This document shows, piece after piece, positions 36,848 through 50,256 of a stretch of DNA of 50,256 nucleotides. The translations under genes and the position numbers were made by a program. Location of the stretch: assembly GCA_028874985.1 (NCBI GenBank), contig JAPPGI010000212.1:1-50256 (forward strand), given 5' to 3'. The stretch comes from Gemmatimonadota bacterium (lineage in GTDB: Bacteria; Gemmatimonadota; Gemmatimonadetes; Longimicrobiales; Gaopeijiaceae). Within the stretch, counting starts at the first letter, position 1. The number at the start of each line of letters is the position of its first letter. The notes under the pieces were generated by a model that had not been told where the DNA came from, made no database searches, and saw only the letters and a program-made list of their open reading frames with translations.

Positions 36848-38098
36848 ATGAACTATCATCCGCGAATCGTGGACCACGAGTTGGCGGAGCGTCTGCAAGC
36901 CACGGGTGCGGTGGTGATCGAGGGCCCCCGCGCTTGCGGGAAGACCACCACGGCAAGGCAGATCGCCGCCAGCGAAGCGCGGCTGGACGTCGACCAGGTT
37001 GCACGCCGCCTGGCCAGCCTCGAGCCCGCCCGCGTCCTGGTCGGTGACGTGCCGCGGCTGATCGACGAGTGGCAGCTGGAGCCGGCGATCTGGAATCATG
37101 TGCGCAGAGCAGTGGACGATCGGCACCTGCCCGGCCAGTTCATCCTTACCGGGTCCGCGGTGCCGGCCGACGACGCCACCCGCCACACGGGAGCCGGCCG
37201 GCTGACCCGGCTCCGCATGCGTCCGCTCTCGACATTCGAGCTGGGTCGCTCAACCGGCGAAGTCTCGCTGGCAGGCCTCCTGGACGGCGACCGTGCCGCA
37301 GCGGGCAGGTCGTTGATCCCCCTCGGTGATCTGGCCGAACTGATCTGCGTCGGCGGCTGGCCCGTCAATCTGGGCCGCGCCACCGCCCAGGCGCTCCGCG
37401 CCAACCGCGACCACCTGGACGAGATCCGCCGCCTGGACATCGCCAACGGGGACGGCAAGAGGAGAGACCCGGTGAGGGTGGGCATGCTCCTTCGGTCCCT
37501 GGCGCGAAACGTCGCCACCCCCGCCGCCATCGCAACCCTCGCCTCCGACACCGGCGAAGGAGTGTCCGCCATCAAGGAACACACGGCCGCCGACTACCTG
37601 AGGGCGCTGGACCGCATCATGATTGTCGAGAACCAGCCGGCCTGGCCCACGCACCTGAAATCGCGGTCGGTCCTGAGAAGCAAGCCGGTCCGTCACCTGG
37701 CCGATCCGTCGCTCGCAGTGGCGGCCGTTCGTGCCACCCCCGCCCGCCTGCTCCGCGACCTGGACTTCCTGGGGCTTCTCTTCGAGTCGATGGTCGTGCG
37801 GGATCTGCGGGTCTATGCCCAGGCGGCCGACGCGGAGGTGTTCCACTACCGCGAGAAGGGCGGACTGGAGGTGGACGCGATCGTGCAGGGCAACGATGGT
37901 CGTTGGGCGGCGTTCGAGGTGAAGCTGGGGGAAGGGAGGGTGGGTGAAGGGGCTCGCAACCTGCTCCGGCTCGCGGAGAGGGTGGATGCGGGGCGGATGG
38001 GGGAGCCGATGGCGCTGGGGGTGATCGTCAGCAGCGGTTACGGGTACACGAGGGAGGATGGGGTGGGGGTGATTCCGGTGGGGGCGTTGGGGCCGTGA
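36848..38098 (+). CDS. DUF4143 AAA ATPase
   Basis: Predicted 416 residues. P-loop IEGPRACGKTTTAR near residues 24-37, Walker B-like RLIDEWQLEP, and a sensor-type FILTGSAVPAD form the N-terminal ATPase. The C-terminal DUF4143 domain has a PD-(D/E)xK-like pattern (YREKGGLEVDAIVQGND, AAFEVKLGEG). Members are widespread, mobile-gene-like, and of unknown role. Two imperfect 22-base repeats containing TGCCGCTAC lie just upstream (about 36719-36765). Confidence 0.9.
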   Translation: MNYHPRIVDHELAERLQATGAVVIEGPRACGKTTTARQIAASEARLDVDQVARRLASLEPARVLVGDVPRLIDEWQLEPAIWNHVRRAVDDRHLPGQFILTGSAVPADDATRHTGAGRLTRLRMRPLSTFELGRSTGEVSLAGLLDGDRAAAGRSLIPLGDLAELICVGGWPVNLGRATAQALRANRDHLDEIRRLDIANGDGKRRDPVRVGMLLRSLARNVATPAAIATLASDTGEGVSAIKEHTAADYLRALDRIMIVENQPAWPTHLKSRSVLRSKPVRHLADPSLAVAAVRATPARLLRDLDFLGLLFESMVVRDLRVYAQAADAEVFHYREKGGLEVDAIVQGNDGRWAAFEVKLGEGRVGEGARNLLRLAERVDAGRMGEPMALGVIVSSGYGYTREDGVGVIPVGALGP

Positions 38099-38175: not shown

Positions 38176-39579
38176 ATGATCGACCCAGGAAGCGAAACCA
38201 GCCCCCGCCAGCCATCAGGCCCACGTCATCGGTCTCACCGCCGGAGGCGCTCACCGCTCGCCCTCCTGCCTGCCTGCATCCTGGCCGCCGCCCTCGTCGG
38301 CGCCCCGTCCGCCCACCCCCAGGAACTGGCATTGACCGGTCACGACCGGCCGATCGACGCCGATTTCGAGGAGGTCTTCCGCGTCGGAGCCGTCGACGGC
38401 GAGCCCTGGGAGTTGTTCGCGTCGATCAAGAGGGTCGCCTTCGACGAACGTGGCAACCTCTACGTCTTCGATGACGGGGGCGACTTGCTGGAGCCGGACC
38501 TCCGCATCGTGGTCTTCGATCGCTCCGGCGCCTTCGTGCGCGAGTTCGGACGCGCCGGCGAGGGCCCCGGGGAGTTCGGGAGGCCCGCGTCCTACGGCGT
38601 CATGCGCAACGGGATCATCGTGGTCGGGGACAGGGACCACCAGGCCTACCATCTCTTCGACGCGTCCGGCAAGCTGCTGCGCATGGTCCACGACAGGAAC
38701 GTGACGACGCGCAACGGTTTGTCGGTGAGCGCCGTCGTGTCCGGGCCGATACAGGTGGACCCCCGCGGCGGAGCGGTCTACAAGACAACCAATGACGGGG
38801 TCCGGAGAGACACCGGGATCGACCACCGTTCGATCTGGCGACGCATCCTCGACGGCGAGGAAATCCGATCCGAAGTCGCGGTTCGAGCCTGGCGGCCGCC
38901 GCGCGAACCGCAGCCCGACGCGTTCGAGTTGTCGGATGACCTTCCCGACATCACGGGGGACTCCGGGCAGACGATCGACCTTCGGGAATTGTACCGCGGC
39001 ATCACCCGCACACCCGTCTTCGAGCCGAAGGTCCTGTACGGTCTGTTGCCCGACGGGAGCATCGTGTACTCGGACTCCTCCGCCTGGGCGCTGAAGATCG
39101 CGCCGCCGGACGGCGAGGGGCCGGTGCGGACGATCACGCGGCCGATCGAGCCCCGGCCGGTTACCGAGCGGGTCAAGGAGGAGCACAAGCGGAAGACCGA
39201 GGAGCGGCGGGCCGCGCGCGCGCCGTCTCCCACGATGCGCCGACTCGAGGCGATGCGGGCCGCGGTGGGCGGTTCGACCCGGTCCGAGCCGATGATCTCC
39301 ACCCGCGAGGCCCCGTTCTACTCGGTGGTTCCGGTGATCCAGCGACTGTCGACCACCTGGGATGGCCGGATCTGGGTCATGCGCCAGGGCGACCAGATCC
39401 TGGAGGACGGCCCAATCGACGTGGTGAGCGCCGACGGCGAGTACGCGGGCACCTTCCCGGCGGGTGCCACCAGGACGCCGAACGCTCTCGGTCCCGATGG
39501 TTTGGCGGCGTTCATCGAGCGGGACGAGTTCGACGTGGCCACGGTGGTGGTGCGGAGACTGCCGGAGGGAGTGCGGTAG
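38176..39579 (+). CDS. 6-bladed beta-propeller exported protein
   Basis: Predicted 467 residues. A basic N-terminus and hydrophobic signal segment (LALLPACILAAALVGAPSA) direct export. Blades are clear: RVAFDERGNLYVFDDGGDLL, IVVFDRSGAFVREFG, then the loop RAGEGPGEFGRP and LFDASGKLLRMVHDRN. A charged helix-forming insertion (VTERVKEEHKRKTEERRAA) interrupts the late blades. AGGAG site before the ATG. Role unknown; members often sit in the periplasm or on the cell surface. Confidence 0.83.
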   Translation: MIDPGSETSPRQPSGPRHRSHRRRRSPLALLPACILAAALVGAPSAHPQELALTGHDRPIDADFEEVFRVGAVDGEPWELFASIKRVAFDERGNLYVFDDGGDLLEPDLRIVVFDRSGAFVREFGRAGEGPGEFGRPASYGVMRNGIIVVGDRDHQAYHLFDASGKLLRMVHDRNVTTRNGLSVSAVVSGPIQVDPRGGAVYKTTNDGVRRDTGIDHRSIWRRILDGEEIRSEVAVRAWRPPREPQPDAFELSDDLPDITGDSGQTIDLRELYRGITRTPVFEPKVLYGLLPDGSIVYSDSSAWALKIAPPDGEGPVRTITRPIEPRPVTERVKEEHKRKTEERRAARAPSPTMRRLEAMRAAVGGSTRSEPMISTREAPFYSVVPVIQRLSTTWDGRIWVMRQGDQILEDGPIDVVSADGEYAGTFPAGATRTPNALGPDGLAAFIERDEFDVATVVVRRLPEGVR

Positions 39580-39585
39580 GCGGCG

Positions 39586-40728
39586 CTACGACACCGACGG
39601 CAGCATCCCCGCGCACGGCTCCCCGCCAACCCGGCGGAGCGGGTGGAGCGACGCTCGGGTGGCGGAGCCAATAACGACGCTATTGACCGTCCGCCCCTGC
39701 TGGTCGGTCACTTCCCTGGTGGCGTTACGGAGTACCAGCACGCTGTCCGCGTGAATGGCCACCGGCATGCTGCGGCGGGCCATGGCGGAGCCCATCGGTG
39801 AGCGAATCAGTGCGTAGCAGCCGGTCTCGGGGTTGATGATGGCGCCGCGGGTCCGCGAGTCCAGACCGAGGAGCACGATATTGCCACGATCGTCCAGGGA
39901 CATGTCCGCGCTCTGGCTCCAGTGGGGGCAGGGGCGTGTCCGCTCGCGTCCGCCGATCGTGACCTTGTGCTCACACTTCCCTCCTTCATAGGCGCCCTCC
40001 GCCGGTACCGCCACCCTCCCCTCCTCGCCGTGCCGGTAGTATGAGAGTATGGAGTCCACCCCTGCTCCGCTCCCCTCCTGGCGAGCCATCAGGTATCCCT
40101 TGGACGTCAGGACATAGGCCGCATCTTCGGAGCAGGCGAGCTTGGCGTTCAGCATCCCGAGGAACATCGGCCGGGCGTCCGCCGGCGTTTCGGCATCGAG
40201 ACCGAGGTCCCGCGCCCCGATGGTCCCGATGGTCTCGTCCGTGCCGTCCGGCCCGCGCCTGACCACTCCCCCGCGAGTCAGGACCGCCGGTGCCCCGGCG
40301 AAGTTGCAAACCTCGCCGGTCGACGAAGCCGACGGCCTCCAGGAGTCGATGGGCCGACCCTGGGGATCGTACTCCACGACCCTCAACCGGCCCGAAACGT
40401 AGAGACCACCGCCGGGAGCGGCGGCGAATTCCTCCCGGCCCTGCGAGAACTCGTGCGGACCATCGCCCCTCGGAGTCGAGATCGTCCGGATCCACTCCCC
40501 GGTCTCCAGGGAGAAGGCCATGATCCCTTCCGGCTCCTCCTTGTCTGTCACGTAGAGGATGTTCCGGTCCCAGTCAGCGGCCGAGCCCGACATCGACCGC
40601 CACTCGTCGTCGATGATGGTTCGGCCGGTCGTCAGGTCGATCTCGAGCACTTGCTGCGCATCGGCCGCGGGGGCCAGCAGGATGGCGAGCACCGCAATCC
40701 CGGGGAGAGTAGGAGTAGGTCTTGGCAT
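39586..40728 (-). CDS. Exported propeller-like protein
   Basis: Predicted 380 residues. The signal peptide (PGIAVLAILLAPAADAQ) is followed by beta-propeller-like repeats: WDRNILYVTDKEEPEGIMAF, RLRVVEYDPQGRPIDSWRPS and DDRGNIVLLGLDSRTRGAII. It lacks the canonical GEGPGEF loop but has a related GDGPHEF. Eight or so cysteines are scattered rather than clustered. It ends tail-to-tail with the 38176 gene. Confidence 0.72.
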   Translation of the reverse strand: MPRPTPTLPGIAVLAILLAPAADAQQVLEIDLTTGRTIIDDEWRSMSGSAADWDRNILYVTDKEEPEGIMAFSLETGEWIRTISTPRGDGPHEFSQGREEFAAAPGGGLYVSGRLRVVEYDPQGRPIDSWRPSASSTGEVCNFAGAPAVLTRGGVVRRGPDGTDETIGTIGARDLGLDAETPADARPMFLGMLNAKLACSEDAAYVLTSKGYLMARQEGSGAGVDSILSYYRHGEEGRVAVPAEGAYEGGKCEHKVTIGGRERTRPCPHWSQSADMSLDDRGNIVLLGLDSRTRGAIINPETGCYALIRSPMGSAMARRSMPVAIHADSVLVLRNATREVTDQQGRTVNSVVIGSATRASLHPLRRVGGEPCAGMLPSVS

Positions 40729-40852
40729 GGGGATTCCTCGGTTGGTCATGTTTCGGGTTTCCTATCTGATCGAGGCCGAGTGCGGCCCGCTTGAAGAAGC
40801 CGGTCTTTGGGCTTCTGACGCAACTCCGCCTGTCAGGGTTGGCATGGCGCAA

Positions 40853-41922
40853 TCACGCCGCCGGCTGGTTCGCCGCACCCGGAATCCGCCGCCAGTCGCC
40901 CGACAGCGGTCGCAGCTCCTTGCGCTGAACCCAGACCTGTCCTCCCGCCCTGTGAACCTGGCCGTAGGCCCAGCGCGCGATCGAATGGGTCGCGGGCCAG
41001 TCGTGCAGGACCTTGCGTTCATCGAAAGCAACCTCCAGTTCGGCCCCGGAGGTACGATTCCGTTCCGTCCAGCGCTCGAGATGCTCCTCCGCGGCGAGCA
41101 GGTCCGACTTGCTCGAGTTACACCCCTGGTGGGCCAGGACGAAGTTGTGTCCCAACTCCAGCGAGTATCGTCGCCACGGGATGAAGTGGTCGACATCCCC
41201 GCCCTTCTTGATGTCCCCGGCGCAGTAGAAGCAGCGGCCCTCCTGGACTTCCCTGAGCAACGGGCGGAAAGCGCCGAGCGAACCGCGTCGGGACCCGAAG
41301 AGGAAGGACCGCAGATCGACGACCTGGCCCAGGAGCGCAGGGTTGCGCCGCTGGACGAAATGGGACCACGCTCCCTCGATCATGTCGGTGACCATCGGGT
41401 AGAAGGCCCGGAAGCAGAGGCGACTCCGGGCTCAAGCCGAACGAGCGCACCGGCATCGAGGTTTTCGTACAGGAAGTCCAGCCGTTCGGAGCCGACGGTC
41501 TGCAACTTCCAGAGCGGCATCTTCCTCACCGTACGCTCGACTGTGCGCCGCAGGTCGTCCCAGTCCGAGCGGTTGTTTGCAAGGTCGGCCAGAGAGCCCC
41601 GGCAGCGGTGGTGTCGGTCGGCCAGCTCGCGCACGACCGCCGCTTGCCGGCCCGTGTTCTGACTCAGGATCCGTGGGTGGTCGCCGGCGGGGTACGGGAT
41701 GACCTGGGGCCAGTAGAGCCGGACGAACTGTTCCGCGATCTCGGACGTGGAGAGCTCCAGCGCCGCTCCACTGTCGTCACCCTTGACGAGACACAGATCG
41801 GCGATGGCATGGAGCAGGGCGAACTTGTAGCTGGCTACAAAGCTGCCCTCGTCGAGAAGGCGCTGGAGCGAGCGGAGGAAGGCCAGTTGCTCTTCGGCCG
41901 TCGGCGGTCCGGGTTCGCTCAT
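40853..41922 (-). CDS. HNH endonuclease (frameshifted)
   Basis: Two frames join at about 41412-41425 to give about 356 residues. The first frame (from ATG 41922) is a helical domain ending LDAGALVRLEPGVA. The second continues LCFRAFYPMVTDMIEGAWSH and contains the nuclease motif: CFYCAGDIKKGGDVDHFIPW, then HNFVLAHQGCNSSKSDLL (zinc cysteines plus DH...N...H-type active site). One base seems missing at the join. The ATG overlaps the stop of the DUF429-HIT fusion gene as ATGA, so both are made from one message. Likely a DNA- or RNA-cleaving effector of unknown target. Confidence 0.8.
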
Positions 41923-43121
41923 GGATCCCAATACGCGGCACGGTCGGGCCGCACCCAGCGAATGCCGCCCTTCGGGTCCGTCACGTCCCCGTCGAAGCGG
42001 GGGATGACGTGTACGTGGGCGTGTTCCACGGTCTGGCCGGCGGCTCGGCCATCGTTAAGCCCGACGTTGAGGCCGTCGGGGTTGAGTTCCGACTGAAGTG
42101 CGTCCCTGACCTCCGCAACGAGACGCCAGACGTCTGCCTGGATTGCGGCGGTGTGGGCAAAAAGGGTTTTCGCGTGGGCTTTGGGGACTACGAGCGTGTG
42201 GCCGTCGGCCACGGGGTGGCGGTCCCGAATGGCGAGGGCGTGGCGGGACTCGGCGACAACGGACTTGGTGGGGACGTTGCAGAAGGGGCAATTGGGCTGC
42301 GAGGCAAGACCGGCCGGTGAGCTGGTGCCAAGCTCGTGGCTCCGTCGAGGCCACCAGATTGCACCCTCGATGAGCCCCAGGGGTTCCCGGGATCGCGTGA
42401 GCGCCGAGATCTCTTCCACGTGGCGGCTCATCACCATGGCGGATACGACCGCGTCGAAGGCGTCCTCGGAGGACGCGGCCGCACTTGCGAGACGGTAGTC
42501 GATCTCGGAAAAGCGCTCACCCAGATACGACACTCGCGCGTCGAAATCGGACTTCGTCACCCGGCCGGTGAGCAGCCGCGGATAGATCTCGATCGCCAGC
42601 GGAGCCCGGACCTGGTGAAAGGGCCAGATCGAGAAACCCGATTCGCGCAGCACCGCAAGGCAGGGCATTCCCCGGATTGAGCCCGTCCCGACCTGACCCG
42701 CGCCGCCGATCTGGAAGACGCTCTTCGGAGTCGCACCCGTCTGTTGGGCCGCGCGCTTCTCCGTGCAACGGTAGAGCTCGCGGTGCTTCGGCTTGCGACT
42801 TCCACGCCGCCATCCCCAGAACGGGTCCCGGCAACGGCGCAGCCATTCCTCGCCTTGCCTGCCGACGAGGTCCCACAGTTCCTCCACAGAGGTCGCGCCC
42901 AATTCCTCCGCAAACCAACGGGGGAAGGAAAACGCGAAGTCGAGGCCGACGACGACGTCGGGATCCCTACAGGCGTCGGCGACCAAATGCGCGAGCACTT
43001 CGTCGCGGTCACGCCCCGACTCCAAGCGCGCCAGGCGACCGTGACGGACCTCGGCGAGCCATATCCTGGACTTCGCTCCGGTCTTGGCGCCGGACCAATC
43101 GACGGCGATGACGCGTTTCAT
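41919..43121 (-). CDS. DUF429 - HIT domain fusion protein
   Basis: Predicted 400 residues, two domains in one frame. Residues about 1-240 are DUF429 (RNase H-like fold): MKRVIAVDWSGAKTGAKSR at the start and VVVGLDFAFSFPRWF near residue 60, with an EDAFDAVVSAMV segment closing the domain. Residues about 265-400 are a HIT domain: CPFCNVP, HTLVVPKAHAKTLFAHT and the histidine triad H367-A-H369-V-H371. HIT enzymes hydrolyse nucleotide-phosphoryl bonds (AMP-lysine, dinucleoside polyphosphates). The ATG at 43121 matches the natural start of DUF429 proteins. Fusion to a HIT domain and translational coupling to an HNH nuclease are unusual and suggest a nucleotide-linked nuclease system. Confidence 0.85.
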   Translation of the reverse strand: MKRVIAVDWSGAKTGAKSRIWLAEVRHGRLARLESGRDRDEVLAHLVADACRDPDVVVGLDFAFSFPRWFAEELGATSVEELWDLVGRQGEEWLRRCRDPFWGWRRGSRKPKHRELYRCTEKRAAQQTGATPKSVFQIGGAGQVGTGSIRGMPCLAVLRESGFSIWPFHQVRAPLAIEIYPRLLTGRVTKSDFDARVSYLGERFSEIDYRLASAAASSEDAFDAVVSAMVMSRHVEEISALTRSREPLGLIEGAIWWPRRSHELGTSSPAGLASQPNCPFCNVPTKSVVAESRHALAIRDRHPVADGHTLVVPKAHAKTLFAHTAAIQADVWRLVAEVRDALQSELNPDGLNVGLNDGRAAGQTVEHAHVHVIPRFDGDVTDPKGGIRWVRPDRAAYWDP

Positions 43122-43450
43122 GGGCTGCCAGCGCCAGTGCGCGGGAAGCGTCCTCGCGGCCCATCCCGGCACCTTGCCCGTAATGGCCACCAAGCCGGCT
43201 GGCGGTGCCTCACGATGTCAACTGCACTATACATTCGGTAAAGTTGCCATTACATGGAGCCCTCCCCAGCATGAGTCAGCCACCTCATCCCGAGACGCGC
43301 ACGCGGCTACGACCACCGCGCTCGTAGAGGCGCTAGAGGCCACGGTGGACGGAACTTCCCGGGATCCACGTCGGGCTGGGCCGTCACTCGAACCGCCCGG
43401 TCTCGCTGGAGGTGGCCGCCACCAACGAGTCCACGCCTCTCTACTCCTAC
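43122..43450. other. Gene-free spacer with a repeated promoter-like element
   Basis: No gene recognised. Contains at 43216-43255 an element shared with 48668-48708. Presumably holds the promoter of the DUF429-HIT/HNH operon. Confidence 0.5.
43216..43255 (+). repeat. Promoter-like dispersed element, copy A
   Basis: Begins TGTCAACTGCACTATAC and continues with TTCGGTAAAGTTGCCATTAC. The first 17 bases match copy B (48668) at 15 positions, and the CGTAAA/GGTAAA..TTAC core recalls the higBA control region at 35243-35277. Confidence 0.5.
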
Positions 43451-44407
43451 TCACAGCTTCCTGAGGTGTGGCTTGAGTGCCGACTCGAGCCTGGTCATCC
43501 CCTCAGCCAACTCCTGGTGCACGGCCTCCCAGTCGTCTTCATCCCGGTATCCGCCGGTGACGTAAGTCTTCTGAACTCGGCACGCTCGTCGTCCCTCCTT
43601 CGTGTCCCACTCCAGTGAAGAGCCGAAAGCGGCTTCGATTCTCTCCTTCTCATCGAAGAGTGCCTTGAAAACACGCTGGTTTTCCACACCGTCCCGCGTG
43701 TCGATGTATAGCTCGACGCGAGCGTCACGCTGGCGAACGACGTAGATGAAGGAAAGTCCGGTGATCCCCGCCCCCGCCCCGACCCAGCTGTGCTTGCCGG
43801 GGCTGATGTTCGCATGGAGCTGAGTTCTCGATTTCGCCTGCTTGAGCAACCCCTCGAAGAACCGGTAGCGCAGTCGCTCCCGCTCTGCCATTTCTGTCTT
43901 GGTCCGGCCTACTCTGCGGGTCTCCTCGCTCGGTCCTACGATTTGAGTAAGGAGCGGCGCGGGCTCGGAGCCACCGATCCGTATGGCTTCGAGCTTGAGC
44001 AGGTAGAAATCCGCGGAAGAACTCTCGTTCAACCAGGCAATCACTGCCGTATGCTCTGGCCGAGGATCCGCTACGATCCAAACCGCCCGCCGTGCTTCGA
44101 TGCCAACGAGGTAGGTGAGAAGCTTCCCAAGGTGGTCATGATCGCTCTGCTTCAACTGGTTCTCGATCACAACAAGGCGACCGTCTTCGTCTTCGGCCAT
44201 CAGGTCGACGCTGAAGGCGCCAGCAGACTGTTCGCGCTCGACACCGCTGAGCTGAAGGCCCGTAGCCTCGGCCAGGACGTCGATGTTCTCCTCCAACCAC
44301 GTCGTGAAGTCGTGAGCCTCGTGACGCCAGACCTCACGCAGACCGATACGCTGAACGAGCCCAATCCCCTGTCCCTTCTCGTCGTCCTTGAGATTCAGTT
44401 CACTCAT
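43451..44407 (-). CDS. DUF4268 / PD-(D/E)xK-like nuclease family protein
   Basis: Predicted 318 residues. The N-terminal half carries a restriction-endonuclease-like pattern: SVDLMAEDEDGRLVVIENQL followed by DHDHLGKLLTYLVGIEARRA (D...ExQ, then a helix), resembling the PD-(D/E)xK fold. The C-terminal half matches DUF4268 (RYRFFEGLLKQAKSR, ELYIDTRDGVENQRVFKALF). Family members occur near restriction and other defence genes. Activity not shown. Confidence 0.8.
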   Translation of the reverse strand: MSELNLKDDEKGQGIGLVQRIGLREVWRHEAHDFTTWLEENIDVLAEATGLQLSGVEREQSAGAFSVDLMAEDEDGRLVVIENQLKQSDHDHLGKLLTYLVGIEARRAVWIVADPRPEHTAVIAWLNESSSADFYLLKLEAIRIGGSEPAPLLTQIVGPSEETRRVGRTKTEMAERERLRYRFFEGLLKQAKSRTQLHANISPGKHSWVGAGAGITGLSFIYVVRQRDARVELYIDTRDGVENQRVFKALFDEKERIEAAFGSSLEWDTKEGRRACRVQKTYVTGGYRDEDDWEAVHQELAEGMTRLESALKPHLRKL

Positions 44408-44576: not shown

Positions 44577-45455
44577 CTACTCCCAATTCTCCAGCGGCGG
44601 CACCTCCGTCCGCAACCGGAGCTTCGTCCACATGGCGGAGTGGTCGCTCCACCTCTCCCGGCGCCATTCGTGATGGTAGCCGCAGTCGACGACCTCGAAG
44701 TGCCTCGACACAAACGTGTGATCGAAGCAGCGAGGCCCCTCGCCCCTGGTGACACGGTGTGTGACGGGTGTGGCCACCGCGAAGCCGTGACGGTCGCGGT
44801 ACGCATCCCGCAACCCGTGTCGTGATGTGTCCGCGAGGACCGACCTGACGCCCCTCGACCAGTCCTCAAGCGGCCGGCCCCTCCACGTTCCGCGCAGGGT
44901 CGACATCGAGCCATCCGAGTCGACCCGCTCTCCCGCGAAGGTCAGGAGCTGACCCGAACTCAGGAACGCCTTCGGTTCGTTGAAATCGCCGGTGAGAATG
45001 CGAGGCGAATCGGTTCCGCCGCGTAGCGCCAGGGCCAGTGTCTCGAAGGTGTCGATCTTCTTCCAGCCATGTCCGCTCCCGTGGGGGATGTGCGCGGTGA
45101 AGAGGTCGATGTCCGCGGCCGGAGCGCTGACCGCGACTCGGCCGAGGGTTTCCGGGAAGGGGGCGGCGCAACGCCACGTGTCGCCTCCGGGCGGATCGGT
45201 CAGAGGCCAGCGGCTGGCGATCATGCAATGGTACTCTTTCTGGACCTTGCGATCACTGCAGGGCAGGGGCTCGTGGCTGTGCCAGACGTGTTCGAGGCCG
45301 TACCTCTGCAGTGGCTCGGCCACTTTGCTCGCGTGTCCCGAGCGCACTTCCTGAAGGGTGACGATGTCCGGTCCCGTCGAGCCGATGGCATTTGCGACCG
45401 CTTCGATCCGCTTGGCCGAGCCGAGTTGGTCGACGTTCCAGGAAAGCAGATACAT
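44577..45455 (-). CDS. Endonuclease/exonuclease/phosphatase family protein
   Basis: Predicted 292 residues. EEP-fold motifs in order: YLLSWNVDQLGSAKRI, the catalytic Glu in VTLQEVRSGH, the GDFN motif in RILTGDFNEPKAF, and the C-terminal SDHSAMW (Asp-His pair). Such enzymes cut DNA, RNA or phosphoesters using Mg. The ATG at 45455 places the first motif at the very N-terminus. Stands in the nuclease-rich stretch with DUF4268 and HNH genes. Confidence 0.87.
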   Translation of the reverse strand: MYLLSWNVDQLGSAKRIEAVANAIGSTGPDIVTLQEVRSGHASKVAEPLQRYGLEHVWHSHEPLPCSDRKVQKEYHCMIASRWPLTDPPGGDTWRCAAPFPETLGRVAVSAPAADIDLFTAHIPHGSGHGWKKIDTFETLALALRGGTDSPRILTGDFNEPKAFLSSGQLLTFAGERVDSDGSMSTLRGTWRGRPLEDWSRGVRSVLADTSRHGLRDAYRDRHGFAVATPVTHRVTRGEGPRCFDHTFVSRHFEVVDCGYHHEWRRERWSDHSAMWTKLRLRTEVPPLENWE

Positions 45456-45591
45456 GGGAAACCCCCGGTTCGAGTTGAGCACCCCCTCCGTACCACCGCG
45501 CACGTCACATCACATTCGTCCGACGCAGGGCACGACGCCAGCCGTACCGCCCGGATTCCGCTGACAGCCCCACACTCAGGCGCGTGGAGAG

Positions 45592-47307
45592 TCATCCCCC
45601 CCTCCCCCGATCATCCTCCTCCGCCTCCTTCTTCCCCACAAAGAACGCCCTTCTCCTCCTCTCCCTCTCCCCAACCCCCGCCCCCCGATACTCCCCGACC
45701 GCCCTGTTGAAGCTCCCGATCGCCTCGCGCACCCCGACCCGGTCCGCCCGAAAGTCCTGCACCGACCCGTCATCCAGCCCCAGCCGCCCCGCCTCCGCGT
45801 AGCTGTCCTGGTTGGCCCCCATGAACACGAACGTCCAGCCGTCCTTCTTGCGGGCGGCGATCATGTCGAACAGATCCGCCCTCGTCCACTTCCGGGACGC
45901 GTTCTCCAGGCCGTCGGTGAACACGGCGACGATCTGGTCCTCGTCGTGGTCCAGCGTGGCCAGGCGCACATCGGCCTTCCCGATGATGCTGCCGAGCGCG
46001 TCCAGCAGCGGCGTCATGCCGCGCGGGCGGTACTGCTGCGGGGTCAGGTCGGGGAGCTTCGCGACGGGGACTGCATCGTGGATGACTTCGTACGGGTCGT
46101 TGCTGTCGAACTGGACGAGGGTCAGCGCGCACTCGCCCGGCTTGTTCCGCTGCTCGGCGACGAAGCCGTTGAAGCCGTCGACCACGTCGCTCTGCAGGCC
46201 GCTCATCGACCCCGAACGGTCGATCAGGAACGAGATGTGCACGGGAGTGTCGTCTTCGTCACCTTCACGCGGCGTGGTCTCCCGCTCGACCGGCCTGACG
46301 CGCTTCCCGGCGATCCGGTCCGCCGTGTCCAGTACGGCTCCGCTCCCGCGCACACCGGTCGTCAGCGCGTCGACCGGCATGCCCGCAGGCCGCCGTGTCC
46401 CGTCCCACGACGTGAACGCGGTCTCGCCGTGCCGAGCCCCGATGCACGCGCCCATCATGGCCCGGCAGGCGGGGTGGAGACCGGCGATGCGCCGCAGGTC
46501 CCAGTCCGCGGAGGTGTCGAAGGCGGCGGTGATCGGTACGGGGGCGGTCGCGGCAGACAGGAGCGCGGCGGGGACGGCTTCGGTCGAGAGCGACGAGCCC
46601 CGGGCCTCATCGAGCGCGTCGCCCAGGCAGGTGCCGATAGGGGCCGGGATCCGGCGGATGCGGCCGGCCACGGTGGCGCCGTAGACGTCGCCCTGCGGGT
46701 ACTCTTCGCAGATGTTCGCCACATGGGCCAGCCACTGCTGGTCGAGGGGGCCATTGCCGTTTGCGGCGAGTGCGACCGCGGCGGCGAAGGCGGCTGCTCC
46801 GGCGATCGCGGCCGGATGTCCGTGTGTGACCGTGGCGGAGATCGCGGCCTCGTAGGCGGCGCGGGCGGGATCGCGGGACCAGAGAAGCCCGAAGCCGGTG
46901 GAACGGGCGGCCGCGGCGGCTCCGGCGGAGTTCGAAGCACCGGCGCGCCACCATGCCACCCCGGCCCGGAGCGATTCCCGTGTGTGCAGCGCGGCCATTC
47001 CCGCCCCGCGGACGTGGGTGGCAGCCAAGCGGGCGGCAAAGCGCACTGGATGATCGTGGGCGCCGGACAGCACCGCGTCGGTTGTGATGAGGGTCAGTCG
47101 GCTGTCGGGGCCGGCGGAGGGCGTCTTTCCCAGCAGGATTGCGGGCAGCGCCTCACCGGCCACCGCACCGAGCAGGGCGCCGCGGCATCGGTCCGAGGAG
47201 GCGGGGCTGAAGTTGGAGTCGCCGGCGGGCGGCAGGCCGATGAGCCTGGCAAGCCGCCGGGCCGCGTCGCTTTCGAATCGGGTGTCGAGATCGTTGTCGG
47301 GGTGCAT
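45592..47307 (-). CDS. ADP-ribosylglycohydrolase-like - vWA fusion
   Basis: Predicted 571 residues. Residues about 40-320 resemble the DraG/ARH fold (RCRGALLGAVAGEALPAILL; LITTDAVLSGA; CRAMMGACIGARHGE). The metal-binding aspartates of active DraG (the DD and DTDT sets) are only partly kept, so it may bind rather than cleave ADP-ribose. Residues about 350-540 are a von Willebrand A domain with a complete MIDAS: SFLIDRSGSMSG, MTPLLDALG and VFTDGLENAS. Divergent from an NrtR-like regulator with a shared operator at 47376-47398, which implies control by NAD metabolites or ADP-ribose. Domain calls are firm for vWA, fair for the glycohydrolase part. Confidence 0.82.
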   Translation of the reverse strand: MHPDNDLDTRFESDAARRLARLIGLPPAGDSNFSPASSDRCRGALLGAVAGEALPAILLGKTPSAGPDSRLTLITTDAVLSGAHDHPVRFAARLAATHVRGAGMAALHTRESLRAGVAWWRAGASNSAGAAAAARSTGFGLLWSRDPARAAYEAAISATVTHGHPAAIAGAAAFAAAVALAANGNGPLDQQWLAHVANICEEYPQGDVYGATVAGRIRRIPAPIGTCLGDALDEARGSSLSTEAVPAALLSAATAPVPITAAFDTSADWDLRRIAGLHPACRAMMGACIGARHGETAFTSWDGTRRPAGMPVDALTTGVRGSGAVLDTADRIAGKRVRPVERETTPREGDEDDTPVHISFLIDRSGSMSGLQSDVVDGFNGFVAEQRNKPGECALTLVQFDSNDPYEVIHDAVPVAKLPDLTPQQYRPRGMTPLLDALGSIIGKADVRLATLDHDEDQIVAVFTDGLENASRKWTRADLFDMIAARKKDGWTFVFMGANQDSYAEAGRLGLDDGSVQDFRADRVGVREAIGSFNRAVGEYRGAGVGERERRRRAFFVGKKEAEEDDRGRGG

Positions 47308-47375
47308 CGGGGTGGTGCCTTTCTGCTCTGAGGTGGAAGCGCCCGTGGAGTCGGTGCTGTAGGGCTTTGACCTAT

Positions 47376-47398
47376 ATTACTGTCATTGTGACAATAAT
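47376..47398. promoter_or_regulatory. NrtR-type operator
   Basis: ATTACTGTCA-TTG-TGACAATAAT: 10-bp arms with one mismatch, in the 150-base spacer between the divergent ADP-ribosylglycohydrolase-vWA gene and the NrtR-like gene. The TGTCA...TGACA core with A/T flanks matches the form known for NrtR sites, so both genes are probably under autoregulated control. Confidence 0.75.
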
Positions 47399-47454
47399 CT
47401 TCACCGAAAGGGACCGGAAACTTGTCAACCCCCACGGCGAGGATAGGTTGTGGC

Positions 47455-48237
47455 ATGGACCGCAAGCACTCGGAGGACCGCGCGCGACAACGGCGCGCCA
47501 AGGGGACAAGACCCTCCCCGTTCGTGGTAACCGTCGACATCGTTCTGATGACCATCCTCCGGGGCGAGCTCCGGATCTTCCTCGTTCAACGCGGGAATCG
47601 GCCGCACCTGGGAGAGTGGGCGCTTCCCGGCGGGCCGGTCATGAGTTCAGAGCCCCTGGAGGAGGCGGCGCTGCGGATCGTCGACGAAGAGGCCGGGATC
47701 CCACCCGCGCCGGGACACCTGGAGCAGCTGGGTGCCTACGGCGATCCCGCGCGCGATCCCGACATGAGGGTGGTCACGGTCGCATACTGGGCAGTGGCAC
47801 CCCTGCTGTCACCCGCGTACTTCGACCGGGGGCTGGCCGAGAAGAGTACCGCCATCTACGCGGAATTCGTCCCCGTGCCGGAGATCGAGAGCGGCCGTCT
47901 GCGCCTCGCCTTCGACCACGCGCGCATCGTGGCCGACGCCCTGGACCAGGTGCGCTCCCGTCTGGAGACGACCACGCTGGCGCGCCGGTTCTGTCCACCC
48001 GAATTCACGATCAGCCAGCTCAGGGAAGTGTACGAGGCCGTGTGGGGGATGCGGCTCGACGCGGCGAACTTTCAGCGCAAGGTGCTCCAGAGCGATGGGT
48101 TTGTCGCGCCGCTGGAGAAGTGGCGGCGGTCGACGGGTAGACGGGGGAGACCGGCACGGCTGTGGGTGGCGGAGGATGCGGGGTACGGGAGGTTGGAGCG
48201 GCCGTTTCGGGGGGCGTGGAGGGAGGGGGGTGGGTGA
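47455..48237 (+). CDS. nrtR: NrtR-like Nudix transcriptional regulator
   Basis: Predicted 260 residues. The N-terminal Nudix domain (VVTVDIVLMTILRGELRIFL, then the Nudix box region GGPVMSSEPLEEAALRIVDE EAGI) carries Ile where catalytic members have the first Glu of REuxEE. This fits the non-catalytic, ADP-ribose-sensing Nudix of NrtR. The C-terminal part is a winged helix (EFTISQLREVYEAVWGMRLD). NrtR represses NAD-related genes and releases DNA on binding ADP-ribose. The ATG at 47455 has an AGGA stretch upstream; a TTG at 47422 is an alternative. Confidence 0.87.
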   Translation: MDRKHSEDRARQRRAKGTRPSPFVVTVDIVLMTILRGELRIFLVQRGNRPHLGEWALPGGPVMSSEPLEEAALRIVDEEAGIPPAPGHLEQLGAYGDPARDPDMRVVTVAYWAVAPLLSPAYFDRGLAEKSTAIYAEFVPVPEIESGRLRLAFDHARIVADALDQVRSRLETTTLARRFCPPEFTISQLREVYEAVWGMRLDAANFQRKVLQSDGFVAPLEKWRRSTGRRGRPARLWVAEDAGYGRLERPFRGAWREGGG

Positions 48238-48939: not shown

Positions 48940-49137
48940 ATGATGCAGAAGGACGCGGGGCAGAAGACCCAGCCGAAGCGCACCATCCGCCACACGGTCA
49001 GCGGCGGCCACTCGGTCGATCGTGCGGAACTCCTCAGGAGCGACCGCGTTCGGAAGATCATTTCCGAGGTCGCGGAGAAGCTGAAGGTCACTCATCCGGA
49101 GAACACCCGGTCCCCAAGGTCGCAGGCGACTTCCTAG
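48940..49137 (+). CDS. Small hypothetical protein
   Basis: Predicted 65 residues, basic and soluble: RTIRHTVSGGHSVDRAELLR, DRVRKIISEVAEKLKV. A GGAG site lies 6 bases before the ATG. The C-terminal half would form one amphipathic helix. No family recognised; it could be a true small gene or chance. Confidence 0.4.
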   Translation: MMQKDAGQKTQPKRTIRHTVSGGHSVDRAELLRSDRVRKIISEVAEKLKVTHPENTRSPRSQATS

Positions 49138-49681
49138 TGTCGTGTCACACGTGATATGTCGTAAGACGGTGCGGTGGGTGGCTGAAGAGGCGCCATCAGA
49201 CCGAGGCGGCGCGTCGGCCGGGTGATCCCGCCGGGGCGCAATCCCGACTTCGCGGCGGGGATGGGGCGGGTGTTCGACTGACAGGACGCCGGGCAAGAAT
49301 CCCGCCGGTGGCGATGTCCCATTCCGACATGCTCGTGTCCCGGGTTTTGCCGCGGCGGCGGGCGGGCGGTTTGATCACAGGCCCACCCGAGCATCGGCGT
49401 CCCAAATCGTCTGATCACAGGCCGATTCCACTATGTACGGTTTCGGATTCGCGCTCTCGCGCCGTCGGGAACCGTTTCCACAGTGACCCCCGGAGGCCGC
49501 TGCAAGGCCCGGGAACGCGTCGGTCGGCCTCGTGAACCGTTCGTGGTGTTGCCTCCACCCCCGGTCTTCGCCTCCCGAGCCGTCCTGAGAGGCCGAAGTC
49601 ACCCCGCGTATATTGTAGCGGGCGTGCACGCCGCGCCCTCCGAAAACCCTTTGCCACACCTGTATTTCAGGAGATTTCACC
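49138..49681. other. Gene-free region upstream of the DUF222 gene
   Basis: No gene recognised. A 12-base direct repeat TGATCACAGGCC occurs twice, about 37 bases apart (near 49375 and 49412). An AGGAG site at the right end serves the DUF222/HNH gene. Confidence 0.4.
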
Positions 49682-50256
49682 ATGTCCGACGACCTCTTCG
49701 AACTCGGCGAACGCATCGCCGATCTCGCCGCCCGCATCAACATCGCCACCTTCGACATGCTCGCCCTCGTCGCCGACTTCGACCGCCGCGAGGGCTGGGC
49801 CGACAGCTTCAGCTCCTGCGCCGAATGGCTCGCCTGGCGCACAGGGCGCACGCTGGCCGCCGCGCGCGAGAATGTGCGGGTCACCCACGCGCTCGAGGAA
49901 CTCCCCCTGACGGCGACCGCCATGAAGGGCGGCCGGCTCTCCTACACCAAGGTGCGCACCATGACCCGGGTCGCGACGCCCGAGACCGAGGCCACGCTGC
50001 TCGAGTACGCGCAGTCCACCTCCGCCGCGCGGCTGGAATGGCTGGCGCGGGGGTGGAAGAGGCTGTCGCGGGACGGCGAACTCGCGGCCGAGGAGGTCCG
50101 CCACCGCAGCCGCACCTTCTCGGTGGCGATCGACGCCGACGGGATGTACGTGGTGCGGGGGCGGCTGGAGCCCGAGGTCGGCGCCGTGCTGATGCGGGCG
50201 CTCGAGGCGGCGGGCGACGCGCTGTACCGGGGGGAGGACGCGGATCGGCGGCCGCG
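49682..50256 (+). CDS. DUF222 / 13E12-type HNH endonuclease (partial)
   Basis: Open from the ATG at 49682 to the window end (191 codons). The N-terminal DUF222 domain is clear: GERIADLAARINIATFDMLA, CAEWLAWRTGRTLAAARENV, LPLTATAMKGGRLSYTKVRT and the SVAIDADGMYVVRGRLEPE stretch. Such proteins usually end in an HNH nuclease domain, here outside the window. They are often multicopy and associated with mobile DNA. An AGGAG site precedes the start. Confidence 0.92.
   Translation, partial: MSDDLFELGERIADLAARINIATFDMLALVADFDRREGWADSFSSCAEWLAWRTGRTLAAARENVRVTHALEELPLTATAMKGGRLSYTKVRTMTRVATPETEATLLEYAQSTSAARLEWLARGWKRLSRDGELAAEEVRHRSRTFSVAIDADGMYVVRGRLEPEVGAVLMRALEAAGDALYRGEDADRRP

Follow-up and report, generated by a model that had tools for sequence, protein, structure and literature searches.

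The window analyzed here, a stretch of 50,256 nucleotides that corresponds to contig C30 of an assembly with 95% completeness and a total of 4.25 Mb, contains a divergent gene pair in which a catalytically eroded ADP-ribosylglycohydrolase (ARG) domain fused to a vWA domain is encoded opposite an NrtR-type regulator. Specifically, the fusion gene (45592..47307, minus strand, 571 aa) and the regulator gene (47455..48237, plus strand) flank a 23-bp near-palindromic operator (47376..47398). Gene content and sequence comparison make it fairly probable that this unit is a reduced variant of the ARG-centered NAD/ADP-ribose conflict systems predicted by Iyer et al. (2022, Viruses 14:1977, PMC9503650), with the fusion acting as an ADP-ribosyl-reading adaptor under NrtR. 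Systems of the ARG-centered kind were already predicted in that work, and what is new here is an eroded ARG domain fused to a vWA domain and provided with its own operator. This two-gene, one-operator version is the smallest form met in our analysis and offers a tractable test case for whether NrtR proteins can govern responses to ADP-ribosylation and not NAD synthesis. Should the dead ARG domain bind ADP-ribosylated protein, it would represent a reader module on a fold known for erasers, and possibly a detection reagent. A preliminary description of this DNA had recognized a DraG-like domain with eroded metal-binding aspartates, a fused vWA domain with an intact MIDAS, a divergent NrtR-like regulator with a non-catalytic Nudix box, and a 23-bp operator at 47376-47398; all of these were borne out by the family, fold, and alignment evidence given below, and the operator sequence at those positions is exact.

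The ARG-vWA fusion and its relatives

Residues 67-297 of the fusion match Pfam ADP_ribosyl_GH above the cut-off (1.2e-17), and residues 358-514 match Pfam VWA below it (0.0095). The vWA assignment comes from homology to annotated vWA proteins (tblastn, at most 42% identity, best E 5e-32) and is also backed by a fold search, in which ARH3 and vWA/I domains were the best matches. The AlphaFold model, obtained from a four-sequence alignment, was poor (mean pLDDT 58.7), and fold-level matches alone were used. By sequence as well as by fold, the best solved match of the ARG domain was ARH3 (PDB 2foz). The protein is laid out as an ARG domain (residues ~39-297), a variable linker (~298-352), a vWA domain (~353-540), and a charged C-terminal tail, and no NCBIfam model was found for the fusion as such.

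The preliminary description stood or fell with the occurrence of the fusion in relatives, and four further full-length fusions were found. The closest are those of an Acidobacteria MAG (L003) and of a genome of the same class and another family (L017, genome G096), both at 65% identity, followed by a member of the same genus (L005, genome G020; 54%) and an Actinomycetota MAG (L004; 49%). The fusion occurs in 3/395 genomes drawn from the phylum Gemmatimonadota, in 1/396 from the phylum of L004, and in 1/297 from that of L003, each draw containing the genome on which it was centered. Three of the four relatives also keep the divergent NrtR gene (L003/L040, L017, and L004), and two keep the operator. 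In the Acidobacteria MAG, the contig ends inside NrtR, whose first residues, MGGTDSERTAPGWTDPDGTFAPFAVTVDIILMTI, could be read at the contig edge, and a matching remainder opens contig C37 of the same genome (L040). These sequences point to a pair of NrtR and fusion inherited together across phyla. They also suggest horizontal transfer of the fusion, because the window copy is closer to copies from another phylum and another family than to that of its own genus member. A phage-borne origin was considered and is unsupported: phage and plasmid collections yielded standalone vWA proteins only, and IMG/VR yielded no fusion. Near the fusion of the Acidobacteria MAG we observed an AbiEii/AbiEi toxin-antitoxin pair (L003:2986-4754). 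Two other genes that looked restriction-endonuclease-like by eye (L003:2184-2741 and L004:6198-7262) matched no Pfam or PADLOC family and were not counted.

The alignment of the five fusions located the erosion precisely. In the window protein, the TDDT metal motif (T76-D77-D78 in ARH3) is replaced by G66-P67-D68-S69, GGDTDT has become A-G-L-H-P-A, and the glutamate of the GDxxG...E motif is gone, while the TH motif (VTHGHP) is retained. The window protein does not retain the full set of binuclear metal ligands of ARG enzymes (E, TDD, and DxDT), and its ARG departs in this from the catalytically active one of ARG-centered systems. Although the sequence family, the predicted fold, and the TH motif are those of the DraG/ARH3 ADP-ribosylhydrolases (PF03747; 2foz), the binuclear metal site of these enzymes has been lost. 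The TDDT position reads G[PAS][DA][ST] in all five fusions, so that the first aspartate is missing from every one and the D78-equivalent is present in 4/5. L004 alone has a fusion with both GGDTDT and the first-motif glutamate; in the other four that glutamate is absent, and the sequence at the GGDTDT position is LHPAC or LHNAI. The TH motif is common to all (VTHGHG in L005). By contrast with this pattern, a comparison set of nine ARGs, eight of them NrtR-linked, showed TDDT or a near form (SDDT, TDDA) throughout, and G[GDSH]D[TAS]D[TS] in every member covered at that end (L095 is truncated; L100, L101, and L103 read GDSDS). This set comprised the phosphatase-ARG of L004, a second ARG encoded elsewhere in the window genome (contig C100), whose motifs are intact, and ARGs beside seven or more further NrtR genes. 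Loss of activity may accordingly be graded across the fusions, with residual activity possible in L004. The MIDAS of the vWA domain (D363-x-S365-x-S367, T432, and D465), on the other hand, is intact and invariant in 5/5 fusions.

Substitution counting for the pairs window-L003 and window-L017 gave dN of 0.22-0.25 and dS of 0.57-1.23 for the ARG domain (dN/dS about 0.2-0.4), and dN of 0.17-0.18 and dS of 0.78-0.82 for the vWA domain, whereas in the linker dN ranged from about half of dS up to equality, i.e., near neutral. By these counts the ARG domain is under purifying selection and, because the MIDAS is invariant as well, the fusion qualifies as a maintained pseudo-enzyme and not as a decaying gene. 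The metal site has been lost yet constraint has been kept, from which we infer that binding is favored over catalysis.

Two alternatives bear directly on this point. The ARG domain might still remove ADP-ribose through a rearranged or single metal site, in which case the fusion would be a conventional eraser that carries a chaperone domain. The universal TH motif, the D78-equivalent kept by most fusions, the second metal motif and glutamate kept in L004, and the purifying selection just described would all suit such an enzyme; nevertheless, the first TDDT aspartate is gone from all five proteins, the second metal motif and the glutamate from four, and the motifs persist in every comparison ARG covered there, so that we regard a working eraser as unlikely. 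Neither do the eroded motifs and the rare, patchy distribution lend much credit to a functionless remnant whose motifs were lost by drift, since the reading frame is open in 5/5 genomes, MIDAS and operator are conserved, and the constraint on the ARG domain stands against a nearly neutral linker; this we judge highly improbable. A maintained reader of ADP-ribosyl groups remains our preferred interpretation.

The NrtR-type regulator and its operator

The regulator combines a Nudix domain (Pfam NUDIX, 4e-13) with a following NrtR winged helix (NrtR_WHD, 1.3e-13), the arrangement that defines the NrtR family, and it is the sole NrtR_WHD protein of the assembly. Its length of 260 aa is counted from an ATG; the mechanical open reading frame, starting at a TTG, begins at 47422. 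It is homologous to the solved NrtR/AraR structures 3gz5 and 5bs6. The Nudix box carries RI in place of RE (GGPVMSSEPLEEAALRIVDEEAGI), that of the L017 regulator carries RV and EQ, and that of L004 is intact; erosion to RI or RV is unlike that of most relatives. The arginine that contacts the ADP-ribose phosphate in SoNrtR could be aligned and is invariant (R46). The four regulators associated with fusions (window, L017, L004, and L003/L040) form one clade with support of 98/96.

The operator ATTACTGTCATTGTGACAATAAT (TATTGTCANNNTGACARTA on the minus strand), a near-palindrome of 23 bp (19-23 bp), lies between the divergent genes, and its pattern occurs at one place in the 4.25 Mb assembly at no more than two mismatches (reversed-pattern control, 0). 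The palindrome score by itself is unremarkable, being reached by 36/1000 shuffles; palindrome statistics of single intergenic regions were not decisive and were replaced by conservation across loci. A nearly identical site, ATTATTGTCACGATGACAATAAC, separates the same two genes in L003 (157-179), and a similar one, GATATTGTCAGTGTGACAAAAAT, is found in L017 (3024-3046). The best shared intergenic 21-mers were the operators themselves, with 19/21 identities for window-L003 and 16/21 for both pairs involving L017, against maxima of 16, 15, and 15, in the same order, in 30 shuffles each; the first match is strong and the two L017 pairs are just above chance. Across 40 Actinomycetota NrtR loci (512 kb), GTCANNNTGAC occurred 20 times, and 9/20 occurrences fell within 300 bp upstream of an NrtR gene, against an expectation of 0.5 (binomial P about 7e-10, overstated because some of these loci are related). 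The operator is convincing because two other lineages conserve it next to this gene pair and because GTCANNNTGAC is enriched upstream of other NrtR genes. Judged from this enrichment, the operator form characterizes this NrtR group. In L004, no matching operator sequence was recognized, and the upstream region of the fusion in G020 holds a degenerate remnant only, with no NrtR gene anywhere in that genome. Where NrtR would adjoin the G020 fusion, we observed broken, C100-like ARG pieces (L018:2487-2799), an apparent pseudogene. In one clade, a GTTNNNGTCANNNTGACCANAAC-like site is conserved 0.7-2.1 kb upstream of NrtR genes (L107:3870, L110:3882, L125:3649, and L123:5165) and probably acts as operator for a different NrtR target.

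With the NrtR regulators of NAD metabolism from Shewanella (3gz5/3gz6/3gz8), the window protein shares the Nudix and winged-helix architecture, an impaired Nudix signature, and a palindromic operator within a divergent intergenic region. Unlike in Shewanella, the operator was found only before the pseudo-ARG-vWA gene, and no NAD gene was found as a target. Classical control of NAD metabolism, with the fusion as a bystander, could be argued from a bona fide NrtR-type regulator and from the nicotinamidase-like gene that adjoins some relatives (L105, by eye). It is set against a single genomic operator placed before the fusion, co-inheritance of the NrtR/fusion pair across phyla, and the absence of a NAD gene beside the pair in the window, and we consider it very unlikely. 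The proposal of the preliminary description that the unit does something other than control NAD synthesis is supported by this unique operator and by the lack of a NAD gene beside it. More room has to be left for a Nudix ligand other than ADP-ribose (a sugar, NAD itself, ADPR-1''-phosphate, or a modified nucleotide), as effectors differ within the family, being NAD for NdnR and L-arabinose for AraR (PMC4666351), and as the Nudix box is eroded differently from most relatives. The fusion partner is nevertheless an ADP-ribose-type domain, the phosphate-contacting arginine is invariant, and the L004 neighbors are ADP-ribose-processing genes, which leaves another ligand as a minority prospect, and the unit is probably an ADP-ribose-centered response.

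ARG-centered systems and a proposed mechanism

In section 3.8 of PMC9503650, ARG-centered systems are proposed as a defense against phages that ADP-ribosylate host proteins. The text on these systems further proposes that Nudix regulators sense ADP-ribose and that vWA proteins, given as an additional gene, act as chaperones; linked R-P phosphatase and ARPP genes are described there as frequent, not universal. The ARG of such systems goes with a Nudix or a WYL transcription factor and with vWA or another peptide-binding chaperone. We found no experimental test of such systems in the literature searched. The L004 locus matches the gene composition given in that section: NrtR and the fusion are joined there by ARPP-1 (2.7e-63), an NYN-like gene, and a phosphatase-ARG whose TDDT and GDDTDT motifs are intact. 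Standalone vWA relatives adjoin ARPP-1 in L048 and L085; these MIDAS vWA proteins are among the closest found (about 36-46% identical) but lack a fused ARG domain. In L113, a vWA relative with a short match adjoins NrtR and an ARG-phosphatase protein, and an ARG lies within a few kb of NrtR in eight of the 40 NrtR loci (L088, L095, L100, L101, L103, L109, L111, and L113).

Compared with the published description of these systems, the window likewise combines an ARG, a Nudix transcription factor, and a vWA chaperone candidate, here fused to the ARG, and no ADP-ribosyltransferase adjoins the ARG among the genes examined; the likeness extends to phosphatase-ARG and ARPP in L004 only. In contrast to that description, ARG and vWA form one protein in the window, the ARG is catalytically eroded, and no linked R-P phosphatase or ARPP was present among the locus genes examined. 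Membership of the window locus in these systems would therefore be partial, given that it has neither a linked phosphatase, nor ARPP, nor a catalytic ARG. ARPP-1 elsewhere in the window genome was rejected as support, being a core gene (present in 21/23 genus members).

In the mechanism we propose, NrtR would sit on the shared operator and repress both divergent genes, as the family and the site suggest. ADP-ribose, or a related product of NAD breakdown, would bind the non-catalytic Nudix domain and free the operator in cells undergoing protein ADP-ribosylation or NAD degradation, for instance under phage attack. The fusion thus released would act as an adaptor: its dead ARG domain would bind ADP-ribosyl groups on modified proteins as a reader and not an eraser, and the vWA domain would grip the modified protein in a Mg-dependent manner, as a chaperone or as a recruiter for enzymes encoded elsewhere. 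A catalytic ARG and a phosphatase are at hand in L004 to complete the job, and the C100 ARG might do so in the window genome. Alternatively, the window unit may by now serve purely for sensing or sequestration. The link that the preliminary description drew between ADP-ribose or NAD level and a vWA scaffold protein is best taken as putative. More tentatively, we advance the possibility that the dead ARG and the MIDAS vWA domain capture ADP-ribosylated host or phage proteins upon induction by free ADP-ribose through the dedicated NrtR operator. The suggestion of a stress or phage response made in the preliminary description is supported by context, as it agrees with the prediction in section 3.8 of PMC9503650 and with the neighbors in L004; a phage role for the window unit itself is a prediction carried over from that literature.

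Neighboring genes in the window

Downstream of the fusion gene, and 88 bp from it, lies an endonuclease/exonuclease/phosphatase (EEP)-family gene (44577..45503, minus strand; Pfam Exo_endo_phos, 3e-17), a possible accessory cotranscribed with the fusion; no EEP match was found near the fusion in the other fusion loci. It is followed by a DUF4268 gene (43451..44407, minus strand; Pfam, 4.8e-30), a candidate island gene whose product matches the PADLOC phage-defense candidate PDC-S11 (4e-126) and, weakly, the C-terminal nuclease part of NucS. Further downstream, the protein encoded at 41919-43193 has a C-terminal HIT domain with top matches to ATP adenylyltransferase models and similarity to HIT proteins listed under Thoeris ThsC, and its N-terminal part weakly resembles MobB fusion models over their C-terminal part. 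An HNH gene with weak PtuB-like matches (40853-41395) overlaps a small open reading frame without family (41380-41931). Within the genus, the EEP, DUF4268, HIT, and HNH genes were found apart, on other contigs, as expected of a mosaic island. We also observed an AAA_14/DUF4143 ATPase gene (36848-38098); two beta-propeller-like genes come after it, one at 38176-39579 and the other, on the opposite strand, at 39586-40749. At the other end of the window, a repeat (49134-50256) has many copies on many contigs of its own genome and in the genus, at 73-94% identity. Since the contig ends within this element, a mobile repeat bounds the island; an open frame inside it (49682-50254) resembles, by eye, a DUF222/13E12-type HNH element in its initial part and is cut by the contig end.
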